Assembly (NCBI GenBank): GCA_016860685.1
Contig: BOJX01000003.1
Coordinates: forward strand, 1-64,000
Length of the DNA: 64,000 nt
Reading direction: 5' to 3'
Source of the DNA: Planctomycetota bacterium
Lineage (GTDB): Bacteria; Planctomycetota; Phycisphaerae; UBA1845
Below, piece after piece: positions 5,669 to 59,023 of the stretch. The translations under genes were made by a program, and so were the position numbers. Below the pieces are notes generated by a model. It was not told the origin of the DNA, did not search any database, and saw only the letters and a list, made by a program, of their open reading frames with translations. Position 1 is the first letter of the stretch. Each line of letters opens with the position of its first letter.

Positions 5669-5671
5669 GAA

Positions 5672-11400: not shown

Positions 11401-11845
11401 AGCGACGCTGCTCGTCGAACATCGTGCGCATCAGGTCCATCCGCATCTGGCCTACTTCGCCGGCGGAGTCGGCGGCGGACACGGCGTTCAACAGGCGCTC
11501 CATCGAATCCAGCGCCCGGATGGCGTCGTTGCTGGTGAACTGTTCGTTGTGCGCCCACTGGTTACGGATGGTGCGAAGTTCGCTGACGATGCTGCGCTCG
11601 GCCGGTCCGAGCACGTCGCGGAACACGGCATTCCACTGGTCCCAGAGGACGCCGAGCAACGTGGCCGGATCGTCCAGGTTGATCGGCTGAGGTTTGCCGC
11701 GTGGTCCCCGGTTGGATGGATCGGGCAAGGCGTTCTGCCAGTTGTCGCCAAGGTGGGATTTCAGTTCGCGCTCGACGAACGGCCGCAGGCCCGCGGAGAG
11801 CAGGTCCAGTCCCTTGCCGACACGTTCTCGATTGCTTACTGCCAT
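8486..11845 (-). CDS. DUF499 ATPase with Swt1-like HEPN N-terminus
   Basis: ELQTNFGGGKTHSMLALYHLFSG (P-loop), LILIDEWVAYARQL; overall DUF499 architecture. Confidence 0.85.
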   Translation of the reverse strand: MAVSNRERVGKGLDLLSAGLRPFVERELKSHLGDNWQNALPDPSNRGPRGKPQPINLDDPATLLGVLWDQWNAVFRDVLGPAERSIVSELRTIRNQWAHNEQFTSNDAIRALDSMERLLNAVSAADSAGEVGQMRMDLMRTMFDEQRRSEMRKRSAQPTEGKPQGGLKPWREVVTPHPDVASGRYQQAEFAADLWQVYQGEGSDEYKHPTEFFRRTFITEGLRRLLSQAVLRLSGKGGDPVVELQTNFGGGKTHSMLALYHLFSGASPADLPGAEELVKAVGIPLPKNVHRTVFVGTQISPGKPHKKPDGTTIRTVWGEIAWQLGGKEGYKLVKEDDERATNPGATMTELFNKYGPCLILIDEWVAYARQLHGTADLPAGTFDTQFTFAQALSEAAKAAKHTLLVVSIPASESPHQRADRGVTDIEVGGERGREALARLKNAVGRVEASWRPASPDEGFEIVRRRLFQPLSGDQFVARDAVARAFVDWYGTQQQEFPTECREADYERRIKMAYPIHPEMFDRLYNDWSTLDKFQRTRGVLRLMAAVIHSLWERQDGNLLIMPGNVPVDDQIVQFELTRYLEDQWVPVIEKDVDGANSLPLALDRANPNLGRYSASRRVARTIYMGSAPTMRASHRGIDERQVKLGCAQPGESVATFGDALRRLTDSATYLYVDGKRYWYSTQPTVTRLADDRAGQLTDDQIGDEIIKRLREEARTRADFSKVHACVPSSDVPDEREARLVILGPEFPHTNKNGVSAARKEAAAILESRGTAPRNFKNTLVFLAGDINRLRELEQSVRQYLAWTSIWDERVPLNLDQFQTRQAETKRKSAAEAVDLRISEAFQWLLVPSQSDPKGEATWTELKLQGQESLAGRAAKKLKNEESLLVQMGAVRLRTELDRVPLWTGNHVGIKQLAEYMARYLYLPRLRDENVLFAAIQEGVATLMWQSETFAYAEGWDEQRKRYQGLRAATTIRVIADDRTVLVKPDAAAAQLAADRQAAGAGTGAAPTPGGSPSATAAGTNGSGGTATPTSGGTAAAAPTAPALRRFHGSVKVDPLRLGRDAARIAEEIVQHLTGVVGADVEITLEISAGLPEGASDKTVRDVTENCRTLKFTEFGFEEQ

Positions 11846-11861
11846 AGGTCAGGTTCCATCG

Positions 11862-25635: not shown

Positions 25636-28600
25636 TCAGAATCGGAATGAACGGGTATCCGTTGACGGATCGGCGCGCATTCCTCTGAATGCCCTCTCCG
25701 GAGTGTCGGGCGGTGTCGCCGCGTCCGTGCCGGAAGGCGATTCCGTGCGACGGCGAATGCGGACCGTGACGGGTTCCTCCGCATCGAGCCGGCGGTTGCC
25801 GGCGCGCTCGGGCGCCGCCTCGATGGTGTGTTCGGCTTTCAGCGCCTTGATCCGTTCGGCGAGTTCGGAAGCCGACGGCGGTGGCTCGTTGCCCGGTTCC
25901 GGCGTAGCACCGGACAGGCTGACCTTGAGTTGATCGCGCAGGCTGGTCAATGCAGATTGGTAAGCGTCATGGACGAAGGGCTTGCCGATGCGAGCCTGGT
26001 AGTCGCGAAGCTGGGCTTCCGCGATGGATAAGTCCTGTCGAACCCTGGCGATTTCGGCGCCATACGCACCGGCAAGGCGGTCGAGGGCGTTGAAGACGGC
26101 GCGCGGTCCGTGACTGCCCCGCAAGAGCCGGTCGTGCCGGGTTGTCGCCCCTTCAAGATAGACCTCGGCCGGGAACTGCGGATGCAGCACAAGGCCGAAC
26201 CGCAGGCCGCGAAACACGCCGAGAGGAATCCGGCGCTCCTGCCGGATCTCTCTCGGCAACGCATCCAGTTGACCGCCCAAGACGGAGGGCGCGTCCTCGC
26301 GTGAGTATGTGCGGCCCCCGATGGCAATGGGATCGCCGGCGCGAGCGGCGGCGACGGATTGGTCTGCGGTGAGGTTGGACAAGCGTTCTGACAGGCCGGC
26401 AATCGTGCCCGGCAAGTCGCGCACGCTGCGCCGGGCGACGTACTGCTCGTCGATGTGCTGCTTCTTCAAGAGTGCGAGCCGCTGCAATTCTGCGTCGGCC
26501 TCGGCCAAGGTCAGCACCGCGGGGTTGCCCGATGCAATCGCCTTGACCTCGGCGTAGGAGAGTTCCTGGCCGCCGACATCCTCGGCGCGACGCGCAGCAT
26601 TGTTGCCGGTGATGACCTGGCCGATGAAGCGGGCCTTGGTTTCGAGGGCCTGCCACATGTAGGCGTCGAATGAACCCTCCGTGACGTAGCGGTAGACCGC
26701 CACTTCCTTGTTCGTGTTTCCCTGGCGGAGAATGCGGCCCTCGCGCTGCTCGACCTCCGCCGGCTTCCACGGGGCGTCGAGATGATGCAGGGCCACCAGA
26801 CGTTGCTGCACGTTGGTGCCGGTGCCCATCTTTTGCGTGCTGCCGATCAGCACGCGCACCGAGCCGTTGCGGACTTTCTCGAAGAGCGCCTGCTTCTTGG
26901 CATCGGAATCGGCATCACCGATGGCCGCGATCTGCGCTCGCGGTATGCCGCCGGCGACCAGCTTCTCGATCACGTCGTCGTAGGCCGAGTATCCCCACGG
27001 GGTCGGGTGAACCCCCATGTCGCAGAAGATCATCTGCGTGCCTCGCGTCGCGGCCGTCCGCTCCCATATCGCGGCGACGTTCTCCACCATCCGGTTGACC
27101 TTCGAGCCGGCGAAATCCGCAGCGGCAGCCGAGAGCATTCTCGCGTCGATAGCGAGCTTGCGGCCGTCGGTAGTGATGTTCAGCGCGTTGTCTACGCGCG
27201 GGTCCACTTTCTCCGAACGCAGACGTTCGTAGCGTTCGACGAGTTTTTCCTGGAGGGCGTGCTGCTCCGCTGACATCGGGCAAGCGACGACGATCGGCTT
27301 GCCGGTTTCCAGTTGCGGCTGGGGCAGGTCGAGCATCCCGGCCGTCTGCACGTCGGAGAAGGCCCGGAACATCTGCTGGAGTTCCGGCAGGTTAGTGAAG
27401 CGGGCGAAGCGGCTCCGCGGCCGCAGCGACGCGCCGTCGGGAGAAATCTCCATCGTGTCGATCACTTCCCCGAACGTGGCCGCCCAGGCGTCGAAGTGCT
27501 CCAATCCGCGGGTCTTGAGTCCGTCCGGGTCGAGGAACCGCTGCATGGTGTACATCTCCACCATCGTGTTGGAGATCGGCGTTCCGGTGGCGAAGGTGAC
27601 GCCGTGGCCGGCATGTTGCTCGCCCAGAAAGCTCGCCTTCATGTATACGTCGAAGGCGCGTTCGCTGCCGCCGGTCTGGATGCCGGCGACACGCTCCATC
27701 TTGGTCGGCGTCTCCAGATTCTTGAAGAAGTGCGCCTCGTCGATGAAGACATGATCGACGCCGAGTTCGTCGAACACCAACCCGTCGTCTTTTTTGTCCT
27801 CGGCAAGCAGGTCTTTCAGGCGTTCCACGCGAGCCGCCTTCTGTTTCTCAATCGCCTTGATGAGATTGCGGTTGGAACCCTTTGCCTCGGCGTGCTCGCG
27901 CAGCAGCTCGTCGTATTCGGCGATCTGCTCGATGAGGAACTTCTCCTGGTAATCCCGCGACATGCCGATCCGCTCGAACGATGAATGGGTCACGAGAATG
28001 CCGTCCCATTCGCCGCTGGCAATCTTGGCGGTCAGAAGCTTGCGGCGGTCCCGGCTCAGGTCGTCCTTGGTGGCGACGAGCAACTTGGCGTTGGGATAGA
28101 GCTGCATGAACTCGCGGGCGAACTGCTCCAGCAAGTGATTGGGAACGACGTACATGGGCTTCTTGATGAGGCCGGCCTGCTTCATCTTCATGCCGGTGGC
28201 CGCCATCGTGTAGGTCTTGCCCGCGCCGACGGCGTGGGCGAGCAGCGTGTTGCCGGAACTCATCCCCCGCCACACGGCGTCGGCCTGGTGCGGCCGAAGC
28301 CGGATCGTCTGGTTCATGCCGGGGAAGTCCAGGTGCGAGCCGTCGAAGAGACGCGGCCGGAGGTTGTTGTACGTGTCGTTGTAGAGCCGCACCAGCCGCT
28401 CGGTTCGCTCTGGATCGGTGAAGACCCATGCGCGGAAGCGCTCCTTGATGAGCTTTTGCTTTTCACGTGCCGCCATCGTGTCTTCCTGGTTGACCACGCG
28501 CTCCTCGCGGTCGCCGTGGTCGATCACGTCGTAGATGACGGGGGACTTCATGTTCAGGGCGAGTTCGAGCAACCACGTTCCGTTGGCGCGCGCGGTGCCG

Positions 28601-30819
28601 TACTCGGAGGTTGCGGCGACGGACGCTTTCGCAGCGTGCCCCGCGTCAAGGTTCCAGACGGCATCTTTCTGAAGGTGAGCGACCGGGACTGCGGACGGCT
28701 CGACGTGGAACAGGTCGGCCGCGAATGCCTGGATGTCGGACGCGGGAATCCACGGCGCACCGAGATTCGCGTCGATATCGCCGGGCAACACGTCCTCGGG
28801 CTGCACGCGCCGCAAGGTCTCGGCGTTGCGGGCGTAAGCGGGGCCGGCCTGCTCGGCCCTGGCGAGCTTGGCGCGCACGTTGCCGGACAAATAGGCATCG
28901 GCAGTCTTCCACGTCTGCGATTCCGGGTCGTGGAAGATCAGGTCTCCCAGTTCGGTAATGACCTGCTCCTCGGGCTTGCCGTAGAGGCCGGCGATGAACG
29001 GCAAATCCACCGTTCCCCGCTGGTTGAGTGAAACGAGCAAGCCTTCCTCGGCGCTGCGGACGTGGGTGACGGGCGGCGTCTTGCCGACCACATCCTTCGT
29101 CATGATGGCGGCCCTGGCAGCTTTTCCCGTGACCTCGTCGTACTCCTCCAGCGACATGACCAGCATGGCGTCGGGGTCTTCGCTGAACTTCACGAGGTTG
29201 GGCCGGCGGCGGATCACGTTCCCGTCGCCGGTTGCATTGAACGTGGTCTTGTTGATCGGGCCATACGCACTTTGGAATCGGTCGTAGGCGCGATTGAGAT
29301 CCCGGCGTGCCGAGTCGCGGTGTTCCGCGGGCCAGCCCTCGTTCTGCGATTGCAGCACGCGGCGCGCGCGGTCGCGCAAATCGACCAGTGCGGCCAGTCG
29401 CCGGCCGGTCCGCGTTCCGTTCGCTTTCAGCGTGGTTCCGCCGTACACCACGGGCACGGCCTGTCTGCCTACCGACTGGCAGAGCGTCTGGTCGGGGCCG
29501 ACGAAGAAGCTCCCTTCGTTGATGTGGCGTTCGGGCGGCGGCGGTGAGAACGCCGCGACCGGCTCTTGTTCTTCGGTCGGAGATGCTTGCGATGGAGCGA
29601 ACTCCGGCAATCGGCGGATGGCGTTCTTTAGCTGGCCGGCCAACTCGCCGTTGCCGACGACGCTGTACCCCTCTCCGCCGTAGAGCGTGTCCTTCCGCGT
29701 CCAGGAGCCGAGGACCATTTCGGGATGACTGAGGAAGTAGCGATTGACTGGGACCGCGACCCCTTCGACGGCCAGCGGCGCGATGCCGAGCCACTGCGGG
29801 TCGGCGTGATGTGCCGGTTCATTCGCGGCGCGTTTGCGCAGAAAAACGATGTCGGTGACGACGGCGGTGCCTTCGCGCTTGAAGGCGTCGGACGGCAGCC
29901 GAACCGCCCCGACGAAATCAGCCTTCGCCGCGAGGTATTCGCGGATGGCGGCATTCTGCTTGTCGAGCGTGAAGTGCGTCGTGACAAGCGCGAGCACGCC
30001 GCCGGGCTTCAAGGCATCCACGGACTTGGCGAGAAAGTAATCGTGGATCGACAGCTTCTGCCCGTGATAGTCGAGCTTGATGTCGGCGAACGGCACGTTG
30101 CCGATCACCGCGTCGATGCGATCCGCCGGCAGACGGGTGTCGCGGAAGCTCTCAATGCGGATGTCCTGGTCGGGGTGAAGCGCCCTAGCGATGCGCCCCG
30201 AAACGGAATCCAGTTCGACGCCGATGAAGCGATAGCGGTCGCTTCCCTGGCTCATGAAGTTGCCGGTGCCGCATCCGGGTTCCAGGATCACGGCGTTGCC
30301 GGGAACGCCTAACCGCGTGATGGCCTCATGGATGGCCGCGATGACGGTGGGAGACGTGTAGAAGGCGTTGAAGGTCGTGCGTTTGGCGCTGTCGTACTCC
30401 GCGGGGCTGAGAAGCGCCCTCAACTCCTCGCCCAAGCCCTGCCATGCGGCATCCTTGTAGTTGCCGGTTACTGGGTCGGGAAAGATCGACAGGGCGACCG
30501 GACCGAAGCCGGCGAAACGCGAGAGCACCTGCTTCTCGTCCGGCGAGGCAAGCCGCTGCTCGTCCTCGATTCGCTTGAGCGTGCGGATGGCGGCGATGAT
30601 GTCGCGGGCTTTCCCCTTCTCGCCGCCGGCGATCTGGCCGGACGAAGCCGGCGCCATGTCTTCAGGCCGGGACGCGGGCGAATCGGAAGGTCGGGGTGCT
30701 TCGGTAGATGCCGCGGTGTTGCCGACCGGGGCCTGCGAGTCTTCTCTCGGCCCTGGCGGTTCTGGTTTGTCAGCGGCCGGCTCAGTCGGAAGCGCGTCAA
30801 ACAGCGACGGAGTTCGCAA
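25636..30819 (-). CDS. Giant N6-adenine methylase/SNF2-like helicase of mobile elements
   Basis: ILEPGCGTGNFMSQ and IGNVPFADIKLDYHG (methylase), LLAHAVGAGKTYTMAATGMKM, DEAHFFKNLETPTK, GSTQKMGTGTNVQQRLVALHHLDAPWKPAEVEQREGRILRQGN. Start uncertain (TTG at 30819 suggested; upstream extension overlaps the 30825 gene). Confidence 0.85.
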   Translation of the reverse strand: MRTPSLFDALPTEPAADKPEPPGPREDSQAPVGNTAASTEAPRPSDSPASRPEDMAPASSGQIAGGEKGKARDIIAAIRTLKRIEDEQRLASPDEKQVLSRFAGFGPVALSIFPDPVTGNYKDAAWQGLGEELRALLSPAEYDSAKRTTFNAFYTSPTVIAAIHEAITRLGVPGNAVILEPGCGTGNFMSQGSDRYRFIGVELDSVSGRIARALHPDQDIRIESFRDTRLPADRIDAVIGNVPFADIKLDYHGQKLSIHDYFLAKSVDALKPGGVLALVTTHFTLDKQNAAIREYLAAKADFVGAVRLPSDAFKREGTAVVTDIVFLRKRAANEPAHHADPQWLGIAPLAVEGVAVPVNRYFLSHPEMVLGSWTRKDTLYGGEGYSVVGNGELAGQLKNAIRRLPEFAPSQASPTEEQEPVAAFSPPPPERHINEGSFFVGPDQTLCQSVGRQAVPVVYGGTTLKANGTRTGRRLAALVDLRDRARRVLQSQNEGWPAEHRDSARRDLNRAYDRFQSAYGPINKTTFNATGDGNVIRRRPNLVKFSEDPDAMLVMSLEEYDEVTGKAARAAIMTKDVVGKTPPVTHVRSAEEGLLVSLNQRGTVDLPFIAGLYGKPEEQVITELGDLIFHDPESQTWKTADAYLSGNVRAKLARAEQAGPAYARNAETLRRVQPEDVLPGDIDANLGAPWIPASDIQAFAADLFHVEPSAVPVAHLQKDAVWNLDAGHAAKASVAATSEYGTARANGTWLLELALNMKSPVIYDVIDHGDREERVVNQEDTMAAREKQKLIKERFRAWVFTDPERTERLVRLYNDTYNNLRPRLFDGSHLDFPGMNQTIRLRPHQADAVWRGMSSGNTLLAHAVGAGKTYTMAATGMKMKQAGLIKKPMYVVPNHLLEQFAREFMQLYPNAKLLVATKDDLSRDRRKLLTAKIASGEWDGILVTHSSFERIGMSRDYQEKFLIEQIAEYDELLREHAEAKGSNRNLIKAIEKQKAARVERLKDLLAEDKKDDGLVFDELGVDHVFIDEAHFFKNLETPTKMERVAGIQTGGSERAFDVYMKASFLGEQHAGHGVTFATGTPISNTMVEMYTMQRFLDPDGLKTRGLEHFDAWAATFGEVIDTMEISPDGASLRPRSRFARFTNLPELQQMFRAFSDVQTAGMLDLPQPQLETGKPIVVACPMSAEQHALQEKLVERYERLRSEKVDPRVDNALNITTDGRKLAIDARMLSAAAADFAGSKVNRMVENVAAIWERTAATRGTQMIFCDMGVHPTPWGYSAYDDVIEKLVAGGIPRAQIAAIGDADSDAKKQALFEKVRNGSVRVLIGSTQKMGTGTNVQQRLVALHHLDAPWKPAEVEQREGRILRQGNTNKEVAVYRYVTEGSFDAYMWQALETKARFIGQVITGNNAARRAEDVGGQELSYAEVKAIASGNPAVLTLAEADAELQRLALLKKQHIDEQYVARRSVRDLPGTIAGLSERLSNLTADQSVAAARAGDPIAIGGRTYSREDAPSVLGGQLDALPREIRQERRIPLGVFRGLRFGLVLHPQFPAEVYLEGATTRHDRLLRGSHGPRAVFNALDRLAGAYGAEIARVRQDLSIAEAQLRDYQARIGKPFVHDAYQSALTSLRDQLKVSLSGATPEPGNEPPPSASELAERIKALKAEHTIEAAPERAGNRRLDAEEPVTVRIRRRTESPSGTDAATPPDTPERAFRGMRADPSTDTRSFRF

Positions 30820-30824
30820 CCATT

Positions 30825-31142
30825 TCAGGCGTGCGACGTGTGACGGCGGATGAACGCGATTGCGGCGTCCAGCGAGAGCGGTTGCGGATCGTTCGGAGGA
30901 AACGCGAGCCGCAAACGACTCTCCACTTCCTGGAGGGCGATCTCCAGAGCCGCGCTCGCGGCCTGGCTCGGGTCGATGTCCGGCCTGTCCTCGGTCAGAT
31001 TCTCCTTCCAGGATTCGTGGCGGGTCTTCAGCTCCCCGGCGAAGTTGTCCACCACGGCGAGCAGCTTCCGCTTCCTGCGTAGCAGGTCGTGGAGCTTCGG
31101 TCGCTGTCGCAGAAGTTGGAGGATGATCGTCTTGTACTGCAT
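30825..31142 (-). CDS. Small conserved hypothetical protein upstream of the methylase-helicase
   Basis: MQYKTIILQLLRQRPKLHDLLRRKRKLLAVVDNFAGELKTRHESWKE..; GGAGG RBS 6 nt upstream of ATG. Confidence 0.75.
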   Translation of the reverse strand: MQYKTIILQLLRQRPKLHDLLRRKRKLLAVVDNFAGELKTRHESWKENLTEDRPDIDPSQAASAALEIALQEVESRLRLAFPPNDPQPLSLDAAIAFIRRHTSHA

Positions 31143-31379
31143 GTTGACCTCCATCGTGTGAATCGGGCGGTTCTTCCAGGGCGACTGGCGGATCATCGGG
31201 ATCGGACTCGAACGGCAAGAATGGATGCTGCGGGGGGCGCGACCTCCGGCGCATGGTCAGGAACGATCACGGTTTTTTCGTTCCCGACCTGCACGTCGGC
31301 CCTTGGGTCGTCTATTTGGCGTTCGACCAGCCATGTTCCCGCATTGTGGTTATTCACGATTTCACATAGCACACTCTGG

Positions 31380-37732: not shown

Positions 37733-37844
37733 CGTGTCCTGGGCGGTCGGCCGCTGGGACTGGCGCGGTGAAAGCCCGTGAAAGAAACACGCCCCGCGTG
37801 CGTTCGGTAACGATTTCTCAACCATTGCGGTGTAGAGTCGAGTG

Positions 37845-40484
37845 ATGCTCCGCATCACTCAGAACAGCACGGCTGAAAGAGCCAAGAGTTACTATTCCAC
37901 CGCCGATTACTACACGGAGGGACAGGAGCTTGTCGGCCTCTGGCGCGGCAAGGGTGCGGAGCGCCTGGGCCTTTCGGGAAGCGTGGAGCGCCAACAGTGG
38001 GACGCGCTCTGCGACAACCGCAACCCGGCGACGGGCGGCGTGCTGACGCCGCGGCAGAAGCGGGACCGTCGCGTCGGCTACGACTTCAACTTCCACGTTC
38101 CCAAAAGCGTGTCGGTGCTCTACGGCCTCACGCGGGACGATCGCATTCTGCAAGCGTTCCGCGATTCGGTGGACGTGACGATGGAGGACATCGAAGCGGA
38201 CATGCAGACGCGCGTACGGGCCAAGGGCAAGAACACCGACCGCACGACCGGCAACATGACCTGGGGCGAGTTCGTGCACTTCACGGCCCGGCCGGTGGAC
38301 GGTATCCCGGACCCTCACCTTCACGCCCACTGCTTCTGTTTCAACCAGACCTGGGACGCGGAAGAGTCTCGCTGGAAGGCGGGTCAGTTCGCGGGGATCA
38401 AGCGCGACGGCGAGTTCTTCGAGGCCGTGTTCCATTCCCGCCTGGCACGGCGGCTCGAGGAACTCGGGCTGCCAGTGGAACGAACGAGGCGCGGCTGGGA
38501 GATTCGCGGCGTGCCGCAGTCGGCGGTCAAGAAGTTTTCGCGGCGGACGGCGCTCATCGAAGAGAAGGCAAGAGAGAAGGGCATCACGAATCCCGATGCC
38601 AAGGGTGAACTCGGCGCGAAGACGCGCGAGCGGAAGGTCAAGGACCTGTCGATGGATGAACTCCGCGAACAGTGGGCCTCGCGGCTCTCGCCGGAGGAAC
38701 TCGCGGCGCTCACCGCCGTCCGGGGCCGGCTCGGCGGCGACGGCATCCCGGAGGACGGCCGGCTGGTCGCGGAGTCGGTGCTGCACGCGGTCGGACATTG
38801 CTTCGAGCGCAGCTCGGTGGTGCCGGAGCGCAAGGTCCTGGCGGAAGCGCTCAAGCGTTCCCTCGGTTCTGCATCGCCGGATGTTGTGCGTCGGGCGGTG
38901 GACGCGCAGGGCCTTGTCGTCGGCGAGCGGAACGGACGGCGCATGGCGACGACGCGCGAGGTACTCGCTGAAGAGCGGAAGATGATCGACTTCGCGCGTA
39001 AGGGAAGGGGAGCGTGCCGCACGCTCGGTTCTGCAAACCGCGCGTTCACGCGCGACTGGTTGAACGCCGGCCAGAAGCAAGCCGTGCGGCACCTGCTCGA
39101 ATCACGCGACCGCGTGATGCTGGTCCGCGGCGCCGCGGGTACCGGCAAGACGACGATGATGAAGGAAGCCGTCGAAGCGATCGAAACTGCCGGGACGCCG
39201 GTCCACACCTTCGCGCCGTCGGCGGATGCCAGCCGCGGCGTGCTGCGGGAAGAGGGATTCGGCGATGCCGACACGGTGGCCCGGCTGCTTACCGATCAGT
39301 CCTTGCAGGCACAGGTGGCCGCGGGCGTGGTCTGGATTGACGAGGCAGGCTTGCTCGGCACGCGGATGATGGGTCAGGTTTTCGACCTGGCCGACCGGCT
39401 TGATTGCCGGGTGGTCCTCTCCGGCGATCGCCGTCAGCACGGCAGTGTCGAGCGCGGGGCGGCGCTGCGGCTGCTGGAGGAAGAGGCAGGTCTCAAGCCC
39501 GCGGATATCCGCGACATTCAGCGCCAGAAAGGCGACTACATGTCGGCGGTGCGGGCGCTCTCCGACGGCCGCATTGACGATGGCTTCCGCCAGCTCGACA
39601 AGCTCGGGTGGATTCGCGAAGTAAACGAGACGGAGCGCTACAAGTCGCTGGCGGAGGACTACGTCGCCACAATCGCCGACGAGAAGACTGCGCTCGTGGT
39701 GTCGCCCACGCACCTGGAGGGGGAATGGATCACCGATGAAATCCGCGCACGTCTGAAGCAGGCCGGCCGGCTCCAGGGCGGCGAGCATCGGCTGCTCACG
39801 CTGGAGAACGCGAACCTCACGGAGGCAGATCGCGCGGAGGCGGCGAGCTACGAACCGGGCGACGTGCTGGTGTTCCACCAGAACGCGACGGGATTTCGCA
39901 AGGGCGAGCGCGTCGTCGTCGGCGACGATCCACTGCCGCTCGACCATGCGGACAGGTTCCAGGTATTCCGCCAAGGCGTTCTGCCGGTCGCTGCCGGCGA
40001 CATCCTGCGTATCACGCGCAATGGCATGACGGCCGACGGTGAGCACCGGCTCAACAACGGTGCGCTTTACACGGTCAAGGGATTCACGAAGGCCGGCGAT
40101 ATCCGGCTCACGAACGGATGGACGATCTCGAAGGACTATGGGCACCTGGCCTATGGGTACGTCGTGACAAGCCACGGCTCACAAGGAAAGACGGTCGATC
40201 GCGTGTTCATCGGCCAGTCGTCGGAGTCCCTGCCGGCGTCGTCGCGCGAACAGTTCTACGTCTCGGTGTCGCGCGGGCGCGAGCGGGCGACGGTGTACAC
40301 GGACGACAAGGAAGCCTTGCTCGAAGCCGTGAGTCGTTCGGACGAACGGCTGACGGCGACGGAATTCATCGAAGGCCGCGAGATTCGCGACCGCGCCGCT
40401 GCGCTGCACCGCATGGAGGGACTGGCCGGCCGCGACAATGTGCCGGCGCACCCGGAACGGGAAGGAGTGAACCATGACAGATAA
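37845..40484 (+). CDS. MobF-family (TrwC/TraI-like) conjugative relaxase-helicase
   Basis: MLRITQNSTAERAKSYYSTADYYTEGQELVGLWRGKGAERLGLSG, GYDFNFHVPKSVSVLY, DPHLHAHCFCFN; VRGAAGTGKTTMMKEAVEAIE. Confidence 0.95.
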   Translation: MLRITQNSTAERAKSYYSTADYYTEGQELVGLWRGKGAERLGLSGSVERQQWDALCDNRNPATGGVLTPRQKRDRRVGYDFNFHVPKSVSVLYGLTRDDRILQAFRDSVDVTMEDIEADMQTRVRAKGKNTDRTTGNMTWGEFVHFTARPVDGIPDPHLHAHCFCFNQTWDAEESRWKAGQFAGIKRDGEFFEAVFHSRLARRLEELGLPVERTRRGWEIRGVPQSAVKKFSRRTALIEEKAREKGITNPDAKGELGAKTRERKVKDLSMDELREQWASRLSPEELAALTAVRGRLGGDGIPEDGRLVAESVLHAVGHCFERSSVVPERKVLAEALKRSLGSASPDVVRRAVDAQGLVVGERNGRRMATTREVLAEERKMIDFARKGRGACRTLGSANRAFTRDWLNAGQKQAVRHLLESRDRVMLVRGAAGTGKTTMMKEAVEAIETAGTPVHTFAPSADASRGVLREEGFGDADTVARLLTDQSLQAQVAAGVVWIDEAGLLGTRMMGQVFDLADRLDCRVVLSGDRRQHGSVERGAALRLLEEEAGLKPADIRDIQRQKGDYMSAVRALSDGRIDDGFRQLDKLGWIREVNETERYKSLAEDYVATIADEKTALVVSPTHLEGEWITDEIRARLKQAGRLQGGEHRLLTLENANLTEADRAEAASYEPGDVLVFHQNATGFRKGERVVVGDDPLPLDHADRFQVFRQGVLPVAAGDILRITRNGMTADGEHRLNNGALYTVKGFTKAGDIRLTNGWTISKDYGHLAYGYVVTSHGSQGKTVDRVFIGQSSESLPASSREQFYVSVSRGRERATVYTDDKEALLEAVSRSDERLTATEFIEGREIRDRAAALHRMEGLAGRDNVPAHPEREGVNHDR

Positions 40485-42118: not shown

Positions 42119-42874
42119 ATGGCCTTGCACCTAAGCACCGCGCGCCGCGGGTTCACGTTGCTGGAACTGTCAGTCGTGCTGGTTATCATCGGCCTGGTGG
42201 CGGGCGGGATACTCGTCGGCAGCGAGCTGATCGCCCTTGCCGAACTGAAGAGCGTCATGCGGCAGTTGGAGTCTTACAACACCGCGGTAAACACGTTTCG
42301 CGTCAAGTACGGCGGGCTCCCTGGAGATTTTGTGCAAGCTGTGGAATATGGTCTGGGGGATGCGGGTTGCCCGACCGCGAACCCCTGCCCCGCGACACCG
42401 ACGGGATCGTATGACTACGCGGGATGCAATGGGAACGGGAACGGGCGGCTCGATGACCTGGGCGTTGGAACCGACCTCGCGTGGTGCCCTGAGAACCTGA
42501 ACTTCTGGCATCATCTGAGCCGAGCGAGCCTGATAGAAGGTTCGTACGACGGCAAAACCCTGACTGGCGGTGGCTGGGAGCCGCAGTACGGAATATCAAG
42601 CCCGGTAACCAAGCTGCGCGGGATCGGCATCTGGGTTATGCTCGATCAGTACTATCTTGGCATCCGGCAGGGGGACGGCGCCCCGCAGCTCTCGACGAAG
42701 GAGGCTGCATATCTGGATGAGAAGATGGATGACGCGCTGCCGCTGACGGGTCGCGTTCGGCTCCTGATCGGATTTGGATGCAATACAGGAAACAGCTACA
42801 ACACGCGCGCCCTGCCGGGCGTGACGCCGGAACTCTGCTCGCTGAGGATATCCGGCATCCCTGGGTTCCAATGA
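42119..42874 (+). CDS. Pseudopilin
   Basis: RRGFTLLELSVVLVIIGLVAGGILVGSELI; VKYGGLPGDFVQA. Confidence 0.9.
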   Translation: MALHLSTARRGFTLLELSVVLVIIGLVAGGILVGSELIALAELKSVMRQLESYNTAVNTFRVKYGGLPGDFVQAVEYGLGDAGCPTANPCPATPTGSYDYAGCNGNGNGRLDDLGVGTDLAWCPENLNFWHHLSRASLIEGSYDGKTLTGGGWEPQYGISSPVTKLRGIGIWVMLDQYYLGIRQGDGAPQLSTKEAAYLDEKMDDALPLTGRVRLLIGFGCNTGNSYNTRALPGVTPELCSLRISGIPGFQ

Positions 42875-43740
42875 ATGGCGCGCTGGTCGTGATTGGGTTT
42901 GGGCCACGAGGTCCAACGAAACATGCCGCGACAACGAACGTCTGCTTTGTAAGCGGTTTCACTCTCGTCGAGCTTTCGATCGTGCTGCTTATCATCGGAT
43001 TTGTGGCAGGCGGCATACTTGTCGGCAGGGCGCTCGTGCATACGGCGGAAATCAGAAGCGTGCTGACGCAGCTCGGGCACTATGATGCTGCGGCAATGAC
43101 GTTCAAGAACAAGTACGGCGGCCTGCCCGGCGATCTCGCCCAGGCTGAGGAAGCGGGGCTGGCCGAAGCGGGGTGTCCCGACGTATACGGTTACGGGGAT
43201 AATGAGTGCTTCTACGCCGTGGTCCTGCGCGCCGGGTGCAGCGGAAACGGCAACGGCATGTTCGACGACGGTAACGGGGCAGCGAATTATCTGAATTGCC
43301 CGGAGAACCTCAACTTCTGGTATCACCTGAAGCAGGCAGGGCTGCTGGACGGGCCGGCCGATGGTAAAACCGTGTCGGACATAAACCCCGTATGGGGACG
43401 GCCGATCTTCGGCGCCTCGGCACCGCTGACGCGCCTGCGCAATGTCGGTATCATGGTGGCGACCTACACACCACTGCCGCCCCGTCGTGCGAATTACTAC
43501 ACACTTGGTCTGTCCGATCGCTACGATATATTGCCGTCAGCGCGGACGAAGGCGCTTCGCGGCCACGAAGCATTCACGATAGACAACAAACTGGATGACG
43601 GGCTTCCGACAACAGGCAGAGTGCTGGTCTATGTTCTATCAATGCCGCAATGCATTGCGGCCGGCCAGTACAGGATGGCTGACGAGACCAGCAACTGCGG
43701 CTTGTTTATCAATACGGCCGTGCTGGGCGGCCAGCAGTAA
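42871..43740 (+). CDS. Pseudopilin
   Basis: SGFTLVELSIVLLIIGFVAGGILVGRALVHTAEIRS; KYGGLPGDLAQAEEAG; ATGA overlap with the previous gene. Confidence 0.9.
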   Translation: MNGALVVIGFGPRGPTKHAATTNVCFVSGFTLVELSIVLLIIGFVAGGILVGRALVHTAEIRSVLTQLGHYDAAAMTFKNKYGGLPGDLAQAEEAGLAEAGCPDVYGYGDNECFYAVVLRAGCSGNGNGMFDDGNGAANYLNCPENLNFWYHLKQAGLLDGPADGKTVSDINPVWGRPIFGASAPLTRLRNVGIMVATYTPLPPRRANYYTLGLSDRYDILPSARTKALRGHEAFTIDNKLDDGLPTTGRVLVYVLSMPQCIAAGQYRMADETSNCGLFINTAVLGGQQ

Positions 43741-52203: not shown

Positions 52204-53031
52204 ATGCCGAAGCGAGTATTTCAGGATGTTCCGACGGAAAAGCCTGTCTCTTGGGGAAACGTGCGGGAGCGATTCGTCGAGGAAGAGCAGGTCTCGCTCG
52301 CGCAGAGTATCGCCCAGAACGGCATCCTCGTCCCGCTGCTCGGGCATTCCGAAGGCGACCGGATCGTCGTCGATGACGGGCATCGCCGGCTTGACGCGGC
52401 GAAACGTGCGGCCCTGCCCACGGTGCCGATGATCGTCGCCGAACACGCTCCGACGGCGGCGGAGCGCGGGATGCTTCAACTTCTGGCCAACACGCTACGC
52501 GTTGATTTGAAGATCATGGAAAAATCCCGCGCCCTTGCCGGGCTGATGAAGGAAACGAACTGGTCGGCGGCGGACGTGTCGCTCAAGCTCGGCGGGCCGT
52601 CTCCCGCATCGATCTCCAAGCTCCTGACGCTGCTCGTTCTGCCGCGCGAAGTGCAGGACTTCATCGACGCCGGGCGCATCCCCATGAGCAGCGCGTACAT
52701 CATCGCAACGGTCGCGGACGCCGCGGAACGCGAGCGACTGATTCAGGAAGTCCTCAGTGGCCGGCTCACGCGCGATCGCCTGGTGGCACAGACGAAGGCG
52801 AACAAGTCGGCAGCGGGCGTCACTCGGCCGCGCAAGCCACGGCAGGCACGGCGCGAGCGCTTGGTCATTCCGCTCGGGCCGGGACGATCGGTCGCGCTGT
52901 CCGCTCCGACGCTGAGTGTCGAATGCGTCCTCGCCTGGCTCACGGACCTCGTTGATCGAATCAGGACCGCCGGCGCTAACGGCCGCGCGCTGGGCGATGT
53001 CGTCAAGGAACTTGCGGCAAATGCCAAGTAG
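52204..53031 (+). CDS. parB: ParB/RepB/Spo0J-family partition protein
   Basis: VSLAQSIAQNGILVPLLGHSEGDRIVVDDGHRRLDAAKRA; LANTLRVDLKIMEKSRAL; HTH LKLGGPSPASISKLLTLL. Confidence 0.9.
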   Translation: MPKRVFQDVPTEKPVSWGNVRERFVEEEQVSLAQSIAQNGILVPLLGHSEGDRIVVDDGHRRLDAAKRAALPTVPMIVAEHAPTAAERGMLQLLANTLRVDLKIMEKSRALAGLMKETNWSAADVSLKLGGPSPASISKLLTLLVLPREVQDFIDAGRIPMSSAYIIATVADAAERERLIQEVLSGRLTRDRLVAQTKANKSAAGVTRPRKPRQARRERLVIPLGPGRSVALSAPTLSVECVLAWLTDLVDRIRTAGANGRALGDVVKELAANAK

Positions 53032-53157
53032 GAGGCCGGGACAATGGAAATGCTCCTGATCGCGATGCTGCTCATGTGCGTGCTCGATTGTGAATCGGAA
53101 GGATCGCTCTACGACCGGGATCAGCGGTGACAGAAAGACGGTAACGGAGGCACTCGG

Positions 53158-54660
53158 ATGTTCGGATTGTTTCGGAACAAGCAGAAGCTCAAGACTGCGA
53201 AACACGCCGCGGCGTGGAACATGGACGCGGCGGTTCTGAAGCTGTCGAACAATGAGTTCATCTCCCTGCTCTGGGCGATGGCCGGGCTGTTCATCGCGGG
53301 CATGACGGGGAGTTCCAAGAGCACGTCGTCCGCCAAACAGGCGGCGCGGGCGCTGCTTCGGCTGGGCTGTGGCGGACTAATTCTCACAGTAAAAAACGAG
53401 CGGGCGATGTGGGAAAAACTGTGCAAAGAGGAAGGCCGGCTCGACGACCTAGTGATTTTCAATCCGCAGAACCCCTGGCGGTTTGATCCGATTTTGCACG
53501 AGACCGAACGCAAGGGTCCCGGCGCGGGGATGACGGAAGTCATCGTCGAGCTTCTCATGACGCTGGTTGAGTTCACGTCGCGGGATCGGAATCAGGGCAG
53601 CCGCGAGAACGAAGCGTACTGGCGGAATTCCTGCATGCGCCTGCTGAGGTCCGCTACCGATTTGTTGCTGCTGGCCGGTCGCCGCGTGACGGTGCGTGAC
53701 CTGTACCGCGTAGTGATCAGCGCGCCGCAATCGCTCGCCGATGTCGTCTCGGAGCAATGGCGCCGCTCGTCGTTCTGCTACGAGTGCCTCGCCGAAGCTG
53801 ACAAGCGGCCGCGAACTGCCAGTCAGACAGCCGACTACGAGATCGTCGCTGACTTCTTCTTGGCCGAGTTTCCTGGAACAAGCGATAAGACGCGCAGCAT
53901 TACCGTGTCCCAATTCACGTCCACGTGTGACGTGCTGCTCCGCGGCACGCTGCGTGAAATGTTCGCCGGCGGGACGAACATCACGCCCGAAGCGACGGAA
54001 GAGGGACGGATCATCCTTGTCGATATGCCGCTCAAGACCTGGGGGGCTGTCGGTCTTTGCGCGAATCTCCTGTGGAAGACGGCGTTTCAGCGGTCGATTG
54101 AACGCCGTGACGTGCGCGTCAGCCCTCGTCCGGTGTTCCTGTTCGCCGACGAAGGGCACTACTACCTGCATCGTGACGACAGCCTTTTTCAGACGACCTG
54201 CCGCAGTTCGCGGTGTGCGTCGATCCTTGTGACCCAGAACATCGCAAACCTCGACGCCGCGTTGGGCACGGGTGACGCCGGACGCGCCGAAGCGGAGAGC
54301 CTGCTCGCCAACTTCGGCACGCTGATATTCCACTGCAACACCTGCCAGCGCACGAACGCGCTGGCATCTCAGCTCTGCGGCGAGCAGCGCGTGCTGATGG
54401 CGAGCGGCAACTCGACGTACGACGCCGACTCTCAATGGTCTGGCGTACTGGGCCTCGACTGGCTCGGTCACAGCGGGAGCACCTCGGCCGGATTCAGCGA
54501 GCAATACCGACCAATTCTAGAGGCGGCGGCGTTTACGCGCCTGAGAGCGGGCGGCAAGGTCAATGGATTCGAGGCCGACGTGATCGTGGTCAAGAGCGGC
54601 GATTTGTTTCGGAGCACGGGCACAACGTGGCTGCCCGTGACTTTCCGACAGGACTTTTAG
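53158..54660 (+). CDS. Type IV coupling protein-like ATPase (VirD4/TraD family)
   Basis: IAGMTGSSKSTSSAKQAARALL (P-loop), FLFADEGHYYLHRDDSLFQTTCRSSRCASILVTQNIANLDAALG. Confidence 0.85.
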   Translation: MFGLFRNKQKLKTAKHAAAWNMDAAVLKLSNNEFISLLWAMAGLFIAGMTGSSKSTSSAKQAARALLRLGCGGLILTVKNERAMWEKLCKEEGRLDDLVIFNPQNPWRFDPILHETERKGPGAGMTEVIVELLMTLVEFTSRDRNQGSRENEAYWRNSCMRLLRSATDLLLLAGRRVTVRDLYRVVISAPQSLADVVSEQWRRSSFCYECLAEADKRPRTASQTADYEIVADFFLAEFPGTSDKTRSITVSQFTSTCDVLLRGTLREMFAGGTNITPEATEEGRIILVDMPLKTWGAVGLCANLLWKTAFQRSIERRDVRVSPRPVFLFADEGHYYLHRDDSLFQTTCRSSRCASILVTQNIANLDAALGTGDAGRAEAESLLANFGTLIFHCNTCQRTNALASQLCGEQRVLMASGNSTYDADSQWSGVLGLDWLGHSGSTSAGFSEQYRPILEAAAFTRLRAGGKVNGFEADVIVVKSGDLFRSTGTTWLPVTFRQDF

Positions 54661-54746
54661 TGCCACGGACACCCTGGATGCGGATGAGACGGCGTGGACC
54701 GTCGGCGCGATCGGTGCGCGCACCGATCGGCGGAAAGGAAAGACGA

Positions 54747-55334
54747 ATGAATCAACCACAACCTGCCAATCACAGCGACGGACTCAGGAACGCGGTCGGG
54801 CTTCTCGTGATGGTCTGTCGCGCCTTCGCGATATCGGTGGAGGTCTTCCTGCACCGGACATCGACGTTCGGCGAGCGATACCTCGGCGTCCAGGTCTTGA
54901 TGGCGATGGCGCTGATCTTCTTCTGGCCGGCGTTCTGCTCGCCGCATCACGACCCTGAGCCGCTTTATGTGTTCCTCGCCCTGTTCGCATGCATGTGCGG
55001 GTGCATCCGCGCGCAGAACGCCCTGCGGCGCAAGCGCGGTGGTCCGCAGCCGCACACTTTTTACACCGGCACGCCCATCGTGATGCGTTTCACTGGCCGC
55101 ATGAGCGAAGCCTCGGTCAAGTGCATTGAGCCGGTGATCGTGTTCCTTGCCGGTGCGGTGGTGTGTGAGTTCACCCCGCCGCTAGGCGGGTTCCTGATGA
55201 TTTCTGCGCTGGGCCTCCTCGTCTCGACGCAGCTCACGGTCGGCTACGAACGCCGGCGCGCACTCGACATGAATGACGCCGCTATTGACACACAACAAAC
55301 TGTCTCGCGGTTTCGCGCAATGCGCCGCGATTAG
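54747..55334 (+). CDS. Membrane protein, unknown
   Basis: Several hydrophobic segments; RBS ggaaaga upstream. Confidence 0.65.
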   Translation: MNQPQPANHSDGLRNAVGLLVMVCRAFAISVEVFLHRTSTFGERYLGVQVLMAMALIFFWPAFCSPHHDPEPLYVFLALFACMCGCIRAQNALRRKRGGPQPHTFYTGTPIVMRFTGRMSEASVKCIEPVIVFLAGAVVCEFTPPLGGFLMISALGLLVSTQLTVGYERRRALDMNDAAIDTQQTVSRFRAMRRD

Positions 55335-55357
55335 TCCGCGATCAAAGGAGAACAGGC

Positions 55358-55645
55358 ATGGCACGAAGTGAATCAAGTCCAAAAATCGGCGCCGGATCAT
55401 TCGGTGCGTGGATTCGCACCGGGTGGCGGGAAATCAGGGCAGCCCTGTACCCGGATTCAAACGTGGCTCAGCAACCCGACGCGGGGGTATGGGGCAATAA
55501 GACGCCCGGAGAAGTGATGTTGGAACGCCAAGGCGAGGCGCGCGATCCGGACGAGCGCCCGTCGATCCTCGGCGAGCGATTGCAACAGGCAGAGAAGGCC
55601 CGCGACGGTCGCGAGCCGGAGTCCCCTCAACTCGAAAAGGAGTAA
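55358..55645 (+). CDS. Hypothetical protein
   Basis: MARSESSPKIGAGSFGAWIRTGWREIRAALYPDSNVAQQPDAGVWGNKTPGEVMLERQGEARD; aaaggag RBS. Confidence 0.7.
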   Translation: MARSESSPKIGAGSFGAWIRTGWREIRAALYPDSNVAQQPDAGVWGNKTPGEVMLERQGEARDPDERPSILGERLQQAEKARDGREPESPQLEKE

Positions 55646-55648
55646 CAC

Positions 55649-55786
55649 ATGTTCGTCTTCTTCAGCATGATGGTCTGGGCCATGTTCCTCGGCTGGATCA
55701 TCCCCAAGGCATACCGCTTCGCGGTCAACAACCCCGATGCCGTCAAGGGCGGCATCGCGAGCCTCCGCCGGATGTTCGGCCGGTAG
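55649..55786 (+). CDS. 45-aa membrane microprotein 1
   Basis: MFVFFSMMVWAMFLGWIIPKAYRFAVNNPDAVKGGIASLRRMFGR; aaaaggag RBS; not in the ORF track (too short). Confidence 0.75.
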   Translation: MFVFFSMMVWAMFLGWIIPKAYRFAVNNPDAVKGGIASLRRMFGR

Positions 55787-55865
55787 GCGGCAATGACCAT
55801 CGCACTCGCGGGCGGGGCGCTCACGCGCCCTGCCCGCATTCCCCGGCTCACTGAAAGGAGAAGTC

Positions 55866-56030
55866 ATGGATCCAAATGCTCCGCTCATCATTGTCGGCTG
55901 GCTCTTCGGCATCGTCTTCTGGGTCGCCGTGTTCAAGTACATCCTGATTCCCGCGTATCGCTGGGGATCGCAAAACCCTGAGTCCGTCAAACGCGGGATT
56001 CTCATCGCGCGAAAGCTGCTGCGCAAGTGA
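55866..56030 (+). CDS. 54-aa membrane microprotein 2
   Basis: MDPNAPLIIVGWLFGIVFWVAVFKYILIPAYRWGSQNPESVKRGILIARKLLRK; aaaggag RBS. Confidence 0.75.
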   Translation: MDPNAPLIIVGWLFGIVFWVAVFKYILIPAYRWGSQNPESVKRGILIARKLLRK

Positions 56031-56109
56031 GTCGGTATCGAAGCGACAGCCTGGTCACGTCGCCAGTCGCGGCCGGACCACCTGTGTCACTGCCAATGGA
56101 GGTGTTCTC

Positions 56110-56265
56110 ATGGCTCTGTTCAATCTCATCATCAACGTCGTCGGCTGGTACCTGATCCTGCGGTATGTGGCTCCGCGCGTCGTCCGGTTCCTCGCCGGAA
56201 ACCCGGAAGTCGCCAAGGGCGGAGCCTCACTGCTCAAGCGGCTGTTCAAGTGGCTCATGGCGTGA
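56110..56265 (+). CDS. 51-aa membrane microprotein 3
   Basis: MALFNLIINVVGWYLILRYVAPRVVRFLAGNPEVAKGGASLLKRLFKWLMA; ggaggtg RBS. Confidence 0.75.
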   Translation: MALFNLIINVVGWYLILRYVAPRVVRFLAGNPEVAKGGASLLKRLFKWLMA

Positions 56266-56323
56266 CGCAGAGCGGGCGCGGCGTCTAGCCGCGCCATGTC
56301 CGCAATCGAAAGGAGCGATAGCC

Positions 56324-57043
56324 ATGTGGGTCGTCAGTCTCATCAGCATCGCGATCATCGGGTGGTACGTGTCGAAGCGACTCAGGTGCTCAGGCACGCG
56401 CTGCGAAATCGCTTGGAGCCATTTTGACTGTATCGCGTACCCTGCGGCGCTTGTCTGCGATGTCCTTGACGAGTGCTTCGGTACGGCGGATCGCACCTAC
56501 CTGGAGGATGGCAGCACCATCAACGTGTACCTCCGTGGTGATCCGAAGGCAATGCGGGTGTCGGACCCGCACAAAGTACGGTTTTGCGACATTCCGTCGT
56601 GCTTCAGCGTCACAGTTGTCCCAAGCGAACTCGGGACGCTAGTCAGCCTTCGGATCGGCCTTCACCCGAAGGTGAGAATAAGCCCTTCGGCGGCGAAATT
56701 CTTCGAGCCTACAGCGCAAGACGTGTTTGTCGTGGCAGTTGAGCGGATGAAGCGGGCGGCGGCGCAGCGACGATACGAGCGCAAGGCTCAGAAGCAGAAC
56801 ATGCCCGGTGCTGTTGCCTCAGGCGATGGCCCAGACTACGTGACACTGGGCGTCAAGCCGGGGGCGACCCTGGAGCAGGTGAAGGCTGCGTACCGCGATG
56901 CCTGCCGCAAGTACCACCCCGACCGGCTCAGCGGCCAGAACGTGGAGCCGCAGTTGGTTGAACTGGCAGTGCAGCGCTTCAAGGAAGTCTCCGCTGCCTA
57001 CCGCCGGCTAAAGGACCACCTCGCGCAGCCGCAGCACACCTGA
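56324..57043 (+). CDS. Membrane-anchored DnaJ-domain protein
   Basis: N-terminal TM MWVVSLISIAIIGWYV; C-terminal J domain DYVTLGVKPGATLEQVKAAYRDACRKYHPDRLSGQ with HPD motif; aaaggag RBS. Confidence 0.85.
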   Translation: MWVVSLISIAIIGWYVSKRLRCSGTRCEIAWSHFDCIAYPAALVCDVLDECFGTADRTYLEDGSTINVYLRGDPKAMRVSDPHKVRFCDIPSCFSVTVVPSELGTLVSLRIGLHPKVRISPSAAKFFEPTAQDVFVVAVERMKRAAAQRRYERKAQKQNMPGAVASGDGPDYVTLGVKPGATLEQVKAAYRDACRKYHPDRLSGQNVEPQLVELAVQRFKEVSAAYRRLKDHLAQPQHT

Positions 57044-57076
57044 ACCGCCCGCACGCGAAACGGAGAACCGCGAGCG

Positions 57077-57292
57077 ATGCCGCAGGAACGGCTCCAGGTC
57101 GAAACGACGGACGAGCGCGAAGGCGCGTGCGCCGCCGTTCCGCCCGGCACGCCGGAGTGGATCACGCCCGAACTGGTCCGCTTGACGCAGAAAGTGTGGA
57201 ATCCTCGCTACAAAACGTCGCTGACCCGCGACGAGGCGATTACAATTATCCAGAACGCTGGACGGTTGTTCGACCTCTTGACGCGGGAGTGA
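57077..57292 (+). CDS. Small hypothetical protein upstream of the recombinase
   Basis: 71 aa, ends 6 bp before the recombinase start. Confidence 0.65.
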   Translation: MPQERLQVETTDEREGACAAVPPGTPEWITPELVRLTQKVWNPRYKTSLTRDEAITIIQNAGRLFDLLTRE

Positions 57293-57298
57293 TTCGGC

Positions 57299-58792
57299 AT
57301 GAAGCGATTCGTCGCACTGGCACGGGTCAGCAGTCGGGAACAGGAGCGGGAGGGCTTCTCGCTCGCGGTCCAGGAGGACGCTCTCAGGCGATACGCGGTC
57401 ACTGCCGGCGGCGAGATTGTCCGCTTCTTCCGCATCGCGGAGACCGCAAGCAAGAGCGATGAGCGGAAGACCTACCGCGAGCTGATCGCCTACGCGAAAA
57501 AGAACGCGGAGGAACTCGACGCGCTGTTGTTCTACAAGGTCGATCGTGCGGCCCGCAATCTCTTCGACTACGTGGAACTCGAACGGCTGGAAAGCGAGTA
57601 CGGCCTCGCGTTCGTCTCCGTGTCTCAGCCGACCGAGAACAACCCCGCCGGCCGGATGATGAGGCGCACGCTCGCCAATATGGCGAGTTTTTACACCGAG
57701 CAACAGTCAGTCGATGTCCGCGAGGGCCTGGCCCGTCGCGTCCAGGAAGGCTGGTTCGTGGGCAAGGCGCCCTACGGCTACCGCAACGTCCGCAAGGATG
57801 GCCGCTGCGTCACCGAAGTCGATGCGGACGCGGCGGAGAATGTCCGGAGAATCTTTCACCTCTACGCCTACGAACCGCTGACGCTCGATTCCCTGCGTGA
57901 CCGGCTGCACGACGAAGGCATGACGTATCGGCCGGATGCTCCACGGTTCACGCGGAGCAAGCTGCACGCGATGCTCACCGACCGGGCCTACATCGGAGAG
58001 ATTCCGTTCAAGGGACAGTGGTACCCCGGCAAGCAGAAGCCCATGATCGACCGTGAGACCTGGGACCGGGTTCAAGCCCTCCTGGGCGGGCACGTCCGTC
58101 ACGCTCACCAGATGACCTTTGCCGGCGAGTTCATGACCTGCGGTCATTGCGGCCGCGCCGTCACCGGTGAACAGGTGATGAAGCGCTTCAAGACGACCGG
58201 CGAACGCCGGTATGTCTACTACCGGTGCAGCGGGTACACCGCGGCCGGGCATCCGCGGGTGCGGATACCAGAACCCGAACTGGATCGGCAGGTGCTTGAA
58301 CTCTTCGGCCGGATGCGGGTCGAGGACCCGGAGGTACGCGACTGGTTCCGCATGGTGCTGGCGTCACAGACGCGGGACGCTCAGACGGACGCCCGCGCCC
58401 AGCGGGAGGAACTCCAGCGGCAGGCGTCGCTCCTGGTCGGCCAGCAGGACCGGCTGCTCAACCTGCGGCTGGGAGAGGAAGTCGATCAGGACACCTTCGC
58501 ACGGAAGCACACGGAGCTACGGGACCGCCTGGCGTCGATCAAGCTGCAACTGGACGTTCTGGACCGCTCGCACGACGAAACGGCCGAACTCGCGGCGAAG
58601 GTGTTTGAACTCTCGCAAACCCTGCAAAATCAGTGGGTTTCTGCTGATTACACCACCAAGCGGCGAATCCTCGAAATCGTCTGTTTGAACTGCCGCCTCG
58701 ATGGCGTAAGTCTCGTCCCCACAATGAGAAAGCCCTTCGACGTGCTCGCCGAAGGGCTTGATCTCTCGAAAAGTCGGGGCGACAGGATTTGA
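57299..58792 (+). CDS. Large serine recombinase (integrase of the island)
   Basis: FVALARVSSREQEREGFSLAVQEDAL, FYKVDRAARNLFDYVELERLE; zinc beta-ribbon TCGHCGRAVTGEQV; ends within the tRNA-Pro gene. Confidence 0.95.
   Translation: MKRFVALARVSSREQEREGFSLAVQEDALRRYAVTAGGEIVRFFRIAETASKSDERKTYRELIAYAKKNAEELDALLFYKVDRAARNLFDYVELERLESEYGLAFVSVSQPTENNPAGRMMRRTLANMASFYTEQQSVDVREGLARRVQEGWFVGKAPYGYRNVRKDGRCVTEVDADAAENVRRIFHLYAYEPLTLDSLRDRLHDEGMTYRPDAPRFTRSKLHAMLTDRAYIGEIPFKGQWYPGKQKPMIDRETWDRVQALLGGHVRHAHQMTFAGEFMTCGHCGRAVTGEQVMKRFKTTGERRYVYYRCSGYTAAGHPRVRIPEPELDRQVLELFGRMRVEDPEVRDWFRMVLASQTRDAQTDARAQREELQRQASLLVGQQDRLLNLRLGEEVDQDTFARKHTELRDRLASIKLQLDVLDRSHDETAELAAKVFELSQTLQNQWVSADYTTKRRILEIVCLNCRLDGVSLVPTMRKPFDVLAEGLDLSKSRGDRI
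58726..58785. repeat. Right 60-bp direct repeat, putative attR
   Basis: 57/60 identical to 933-992; last 12 bp lie in tRNA-Pro; internal perfect 10-bp inverted repeat 58730-58739/58750-58759. Confidence 0.8.
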
Positions 58793-58849
58793 ACCTGCGA
58801 CCTCTGGACCCCCAGTCCAGCACTCTAAACCAGGCTGAGCTACGCCCCG
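58774..58849 (-). tRNA. tRNA-Pro(GGG)
   Basis: CGGGGCGTAGCTCAGCCTGG...CTGGACTGGGGGTCCAG...GGTTCGAATCCTGTCGCCCCGA folds as a cloverleaf with anticodon GGG and C1:G72. Confidence 0.92.
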
Positions 58850-59023
58850 ATAGGATTGAATTTCGTCATGACACAGATGCGAGCGCGGGGCGCCGATGGG
58901 CGGTTGTCTGCTTTACCGCCCGTGCGATTTCCGGCGGGCGCGCGACTGTTCCTCCCGGCCGCTCGGCGCCTCAACGGCGGAATGCTCGGGGCGTCGCCGA
59001 AGACGTCGCCCGAACCGCCAAGC

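Follow-up and report, generated by a model that had tools for sequence, protein, structure and literature searches.

Tandem single-pass membrane microproteins in the coupling module of a Planctomycetota mobile element

What might three very short reading frames, placed in tandem between a coupling protein gene and an integrase gene, do for the mobile element that carries them? The question was raised by a preliminary description of 64,000 nt of DNA (the whole of this stretch is referred to here as the window) from a Planctomycetota bacterium (GCA_016860685.1, contig BOJX01000003.1, positions 1 to 64,000), in which three ORFs of 45, 54 and 51 aa were reported as paralogous membrane microproteins; their positions and sizes proved to be exactly as claimed.

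55649 to 55786, plus strand: microprotein A, 45 aa, transmembrane (TM) helix at about residues 1-19, tail NNPDAVKGGIASLRRMFGR
55866 to 56030, plus strand: microprotein B, 54 aa, TM helix at about residues 5-23, tail SQNPESVKRGILIARKLLRK
56110 to 56265, plus strand: microprotein C, 51 aa, TM helix at about residues 2-20, tail GNPEVAKGGASLLKRLFKWLMA

Coding evidence, relatives and ancestry

A clear Shine-Dalgarno site lies ahead of each frame (AAAGGAG for A, GAAAGGAG for B and TGGAGG for C), in keeping with the strong ribosome-binding sites attributed to all three, and the codon-position bias is strong (GC3 of 0.96, 0.76 and 0.84 in A, B and C, with GC2 of 0.42, 0.39 and 0.37). Microprotein A starts 3 nt past the end of the gene for a protein of ~95 aa (55358-55645). 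The predicted features bear out the proposed architecture of one TM helix followed by a conserved tail, which is basic, in every ORF; the motif NPxxVKxG, said to be common to the trio, is present in A and B but not in C, which reads NPEVAKGG. That the three are tandem paralogues was confirmed with 5000 shuffles in which TM and tail composition were kept separate, the similarity lying far above that of the shuffled sequences in each of the three pairs (p<=2e-4). The two spacers within the trio (55787-55865 and 56031-56109) are both exactly 79 nt long; the A-B spacer forms a strong hairpin (z=-3.08), and because neither the B-C spacer nor that of the related locus L190 is unusual, no general RNA element is claimed.

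No above-chance profile match to A, B or C was obtained in Pfam-A, PHROGs or NCBIfam, a PDB sequence search returned no meaningful match and tblastn with B gave no plasmid or phage match. A profile made from the trio only recovered the window alone among 392 phylum genomes, and therefore the neighbouring coupling ATPase (53158-54660) was used to reach relatives; weak matches of the trio profile elsewhere lay mostly inside long unrelated ORFs, and the one that was checked (L005) was no relative by context. ATPase relatives are present in 12 of the 392 phylum and 41 of the 397 class genomes (the window genome being counted in both), and also in 176 contig stretches, from which the 80 best loci were retained; the ORFs downstream of these ATPases were subjected to iterated HMM searches. 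Two microproteins in tandem occupy the same slot in both L190 (genome G599, of the same genus as the window) and L191 (G621, from another family of the class), and one does so in L066 (G547), while a single 46-aa homologue in G555 (E 3e-11) came from a later profile search. In a six-frame search of the loci collected before the G555 match, the scores separate sharply, members being found at ~5e-20 or better and the next match at 0.4. Strong family matches are confined to 5 of the 397 class genomes, 294 phylum genomes having yielded no further one; the family is rare and its distribution modest. A match in G556 (3e-5), which contains a stop and is located elsewhere in the genome, was set aside, and the slot proteins of 79-85 aa with 'HGIYPAIRFV' and the L195/L198 ORFs, possible distant relatives, were not counted as members.

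In the resulting nine-member family the Asn and the Arg of the 'RF' position are invariant, besides the start Met, and the Pro is found in seven of the nine. Synonymous-biased conservation of the frames in homologous islands had been named beforehand as the check on the preliminary description, and the frames survived it: between L190 and L191, dN is 0.188 and dS 0.830 for the first copies (dN/dS about 0.23), and 0.177 and 0.400 for the second copies (dN/dS 0.44), values which show purifying selection on the orthologues. A 189-aa antisense ORF (55457-56026) overlaps the trio and gives a long open frame in the window, but that it should be the true gene, or the three frames spurious, is extremely improbable in view of the L190-L191 changes by codon position (11/5/23 and 15/4/14), of dN/dS below 0.5 in both comparisons in the sense frame, and of independent sense-frame homologues with E-values down to 1e-27. 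A, B and C are genuine, and the family to which they belong, one of single-pass microproteins of the inner membrane, had not been named before.

In the microprotein tree, built from ~50 columns and with some weak branches, window A groups with the G555 protein (88/85) and window C is their neighbour; window B joins the second copies of L190/L191 (80/88). Judged from this grouping of A and B with copies from other islands, the paralogues split before the islands did; they are divergent paralogues retained over time and not a recent amplification, which would suit functional copies that have diverged and agrees with the earlier remark that divergent copies are kept in tandem.

The coupling module and its mobile element

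The gene context bears out the proposed tie between the trio and a conjugation (coupling-protein) module. The trio does lie between the coupling protein and the integrase, as described, but is adjacent to neither, since two genes intervene on each side: the conserved 54747-55334 and 55358-55645 towards the ATPase, and the J-protein and 71-aa genes towards the integrase. The module ends at tRNA-Pro and runs in the order ParB, TM-less coupling ATPase, multi-TM partner, ~95-aa protein, the slot, J-domain protein, 71-aa protein and serine integrase.

52204 to 53031, plus strand: ParB; present in most relatives
53158 to 54660, plus strand: TraD/TraG-type coupling ATPase (Pfam TraG-D_C 1.8e-6, above cut-off)
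54747 to 55334, plus strand: multi-TM protein of ~195 aa, directly after the ATPase; 82 downstream ORFs fall in one family
55358 to 55645, plus strand: ~95-aa protein with an acidic C terminus; borders the slot on its upstream side in 50 islands
56324 to 57043, plus strand: J-domain protein of 239 aa (Pfam DnaJ 5e-12), N-terminal TM, C-terminal J domain with HPD
57077 to 57292, plus strand: 71-aa protein that precedes the integrase; 25 relatives

Searched against the PDB, the ATPase profile has DotL/IcmO as its sole match (1.7e-8); the Walker A motif occupies residues 48-55 after a short N terminus, and inspection revealed no TM-like stretch. This Walker A reads GMTGSSKS as against the usual G.TGSGK[ST], a form shared with the nearest relative, L169, and with no other readable relative. 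The product of 54747-55334, whose AF2 model (pLDDT 90.9) has five main helices, is a candidate membrane partner of the TM-less ATPase; because a Foldseek search of it against the PDB gave chance long-helix matches only and no fold match, the reading of a split coupling protein draws on gene order and size. A DUF1275 match to this protein (2.5e-4, below cut-off, in 1 of 37 members) was set aside. The multi-TM and ~95-aa genes co-occur at every locus listed; the ~95-aa protein has no family match in Pfam, PHROGs or NCBIfam, and a core of the type 'ELRxALYPESNVAQPxxYG' is conserved in its family.

The contents of the slot vary between microproteins, a J-domain protein and other small TM ORFs. J-domain proteins were found in it in 27 islands, with HPD in 25 and a clear N-terminal hydrophobic segment, by our own threshold, in 17 of the 27. 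In a count over 50 slots, 19 small TM ORFs that have a Shine-Dalgarno site are in sense and 3 in antisense orientation, and small TM ORFs in the slot that are not family members outscore off-slot ones with the family profile (Mann-Whitney p=1.4e-5).

Carriers of the microproteins are scattered on the ATPase tree and their nearest relatives are without them. The closest relative of the window ATPase (L169, 68% identity, its sister on the tree) has a slot with the J-protein only, and there is no microprotein in the slot of L200, beside L190 on the tree, or of L077, beside L066; the ATPase therefore does not need one. In G555 the microprotein comes after a full-length VirD4-type coupling protein (PF02534, 1.5e-71) whose N-terminal region is itself hydrophobic, and after a small protein of 82 aa, and it precedes a serine recombinase; the association is thus seen with coupling genes of two different types. 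Taken with the patchiness on the ATPase tree, this makes the microprotein gene an accessory that moves between backbones, optional and not core in the coupling module. The G555 island also encodes a 1372-aa NACHT-domain protein (L209 823-4941), ahead of its ParB and coupling-protein genes.

As to the element itself, several features expected of an integrative and mobilizable element (IME) are present, namely an integrase, attachment repeats, a tRNA target and a relaxase of its own.

57299 to 58792, plus strand: large serine recombinase (integrase), its 3' end overlapping tRNA-Pro
58773 to 58849, minus strand: tRNA-Pro(GGG), by Rfam; putative integration site
58750 to 58779, plus strand: att-like 30-bp perfect repeat, right copy
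957 to 986, plus strand: att-like 30-bp perfect repeat, left copy, inside the 3' end of a serine recombinase (196-1083)
37842 to 40484, plus strand: MobF (TrwC/TraI-type) relaxase-helicase (Pfam TrwC 3.1e-70; NCBIfam MobF 9.3e-56)

The left repeat falls inside the end of another serine recombinase, and elements may therefore be stacked in tandem; 196-1083 is what remains of a second serine recombinase, and probably two elements have integrated in tandem. Searches of the genome, whose assembly is ~90% complete, with PF19044 and PF03135 as markers of a VirB4-type gene gave no match; with a MobF relaxase and no match to these two profiles in an incomplete assembly, the element looks mobilizable rather than self-transmissible. 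Its minus strand carries CBASS-type cargo at 4230-6751 (cyclase 5672-6751, HORMA 5159-5668, TRIP13 4230-5162, all strong PADLOC matches), an apparently complete Hma defence system at 8486-19581 (HmaA, HmaB and HmaC, PADLOC matches at E=0) and, at 25636-31254, the gene for a protein of 1872 aa weakly similar to helicases and methyltransferases. Also inside the element are the ORFs 42119-42874 and 42778-43740, both with an N-terminal methylation motif like that of type IV pilins; for 42778-43740 the match falls short of the curated cut-off.

Possible roles of the microproteins

The net charge is +3 to +7 in the tail and 0 or -1 N-terminal of the TM, from which, by the positive-inside rule, we infer an N-out/C-in topology; the TM is preceded by no more than about 1-8 residues, and the conserved part is the predicted cytoplasmic tail, with an amphipathic moment of 0.55-0.86. 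The AlphaFold2 model of B (pLDDT 83.5), made from a shallow alignment of nine sequences and with no bearing on oligomers, consists of a helix at 5-36, a break at N37 and a helix at 38-52, and with the break placed at the invariant Asn, this residue and the following Pro-Asp/Glu (NP[D/E]) may be read as a helix N-cap. The tail would then be a short basic amphipathic helix lying on the inner leaflet and capped by the conserved Asn-Pro-Asp/Glu.

The best explanation, which we put forward tentatively, is that the microproteins are N-out/C-in accessory subunits of an inner-membrane coupling complex. They may help to keep the ATPase, the multi-TM partner or the relaxosome in place or in order at the membrane, the divergent copies giving a mixed or specialised set, and substrate remodelling could be served by DnaK, brought in by the membrane-anchored J-protein of the same operon; on this view the microproteins would touch the ATPase, its multi-TM partner or the J-protein. 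The shared slot in the window, L190, L191 and L066, the G555 homologue behind a second type of coupling protein, the tight packing of the genes, the purifying selection, the charge and amphipathicity of the tail, the two-helix model, the sense-strand excess of small TM ORFs in the slots and the published precedents (PMC7434980) argue for this role. Close ATPase relatives without a microprotein, the rarity of the family, the lack of a fold match for the multi-TM partner and the failure to find a VirB4-type gene in the ~90% complete assembly argue against it. The preliminary interpretation of the trio as a hetero-oligomeric membrane component (pore, mating or exclusion factor, or toxin-like) is supported in part, in its coding, paralogous and tandem nature, its TM and basic tail and its coupling-module context; a hetero-oligomer and a pore or mating role stay at the level of a proposal, and an essential mating component is argued against by the nearest relatives of the same ATPase, which are without the genes. 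It is rather unlikely that divergent microproteins act as a new class of exchangeable modulators, hetero-oligomerising with TM-less and VirD4 ATPases and the membrane J-protein and setting the substrate or mating channel used by a mobilizable Planctomycetota element.

The microproteins could instead be partners of the membrane-anchored J-protein, recruiting or regulating J-protein/DnaK rather than the coupling ATPase. The J-protein is in the same slot in all four of the window, L190, L191 and L066, and in L190 and L191 the stop of the second microprotein overlaps the J-protein start as ATGA, a translational overlap that favours partnership; however, no J-protein was seen beside the microprotein of G555 and many islands have a J-protein but no microprotein, and we regard this possibility as unlikely.

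Entry exclusion or immunity, by which a second, related element would be blocked, is possible insofar as the genes are accessory and divergent: they encode patchily distributed small inner-membrane proteins adjoining coupling genes, and divergent tandem copies could give several specificities. Against this, the few residues ahead of the TM leave almost nothing outside the inner membrane, it is the cytoplasmic tail that is conserved, and orthologous copies are conserved across host families; we know of no exclusion target for these elements and consider the role doubtful. Membrane-acting small toxins are generally small, with a hydrophobic helix and a basic amphipathic tail, and by analogy the microproteins, which resemble them in all three respects, might be toxins or holin-like peptides of type I toxin-antitoxin or abortive systems. 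Yet the genes belong to a tightly packed operon on the sense strand and have strong ribosome-binding sites, among described RNA families Rfam finds the tRNA only over 53000-58900, no sigma-70-like promoter site was found on either strand and no antitoxin ORF was seen, and the helix-cap motif is conserved, which makes toxin action quite improbable and the least favoured of the functional roles weighed.

The module offers a testable case of a coupling ATPase whose membrane part would be divided among separate genes, some of them exchangeable. The microproteins add a family that the searched libraries do not contain to a DNA-transfer module with relatives in Planctomycetota and, by its ATPase, in Verrucomicrobiota, Bacteroidota, Acidobacteriota and Cyanobacteria records, and the elements concerned carry anti-phage systems.

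Comparison with known transfer systems

TM-less coupling proteins function with small membrane partners, and TraG-TraJ pairs require a ~200-residue multi-TM neighbour, according to the portion of the source drawn on here (PMC7434980). The window is similar to TraJ/TraI of pIP501 as described there, where the ATPase starts near Walker A, without a TM, and membrane proteins are encoded adjacent to it; it differs in that its trio consists of optional tandem paralogues of 45-54 aa placed two genes away, and in that the immediate neighbour of its ATPase is a ~195-aa multi-TM protein, likened by description and not by sequence. Also by description, 54747-55334 is comparable with the ~200-residue protein of up to five TM helices encoded by the coupling gene in the IncHI-type TraG-TraJ pair, although the coupling protein there has its own TM region and the same portion of the source describes no microprotein trio (PMC7434980). 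In Dot/Icm, DotJ and IcmT around DotL likewise give a coupling ATPase beside inner-membrane accessory proteins, but DotJ and IcmT are placed in the inner-membrane complex and not in the coupling complex, the comparison again being one of description (PMC12981334).

At the level of the whole element, the likeness is to IMEs as set out in the consulted sections of a 2017 review (PMC5704250): an integrase, a relaxase, a coupling protein of its own and a tRNA target; the two VirB4 profiles searched gave no T4SS gene in the ~90% complete assembly. No canonical IME with a MobF relaxase was known according to those sections, and the tRNA-targeting examples given in them use tyrosine recombinases, whereas the element of the window combines MobF with a serine recombinase (PMC5704250).
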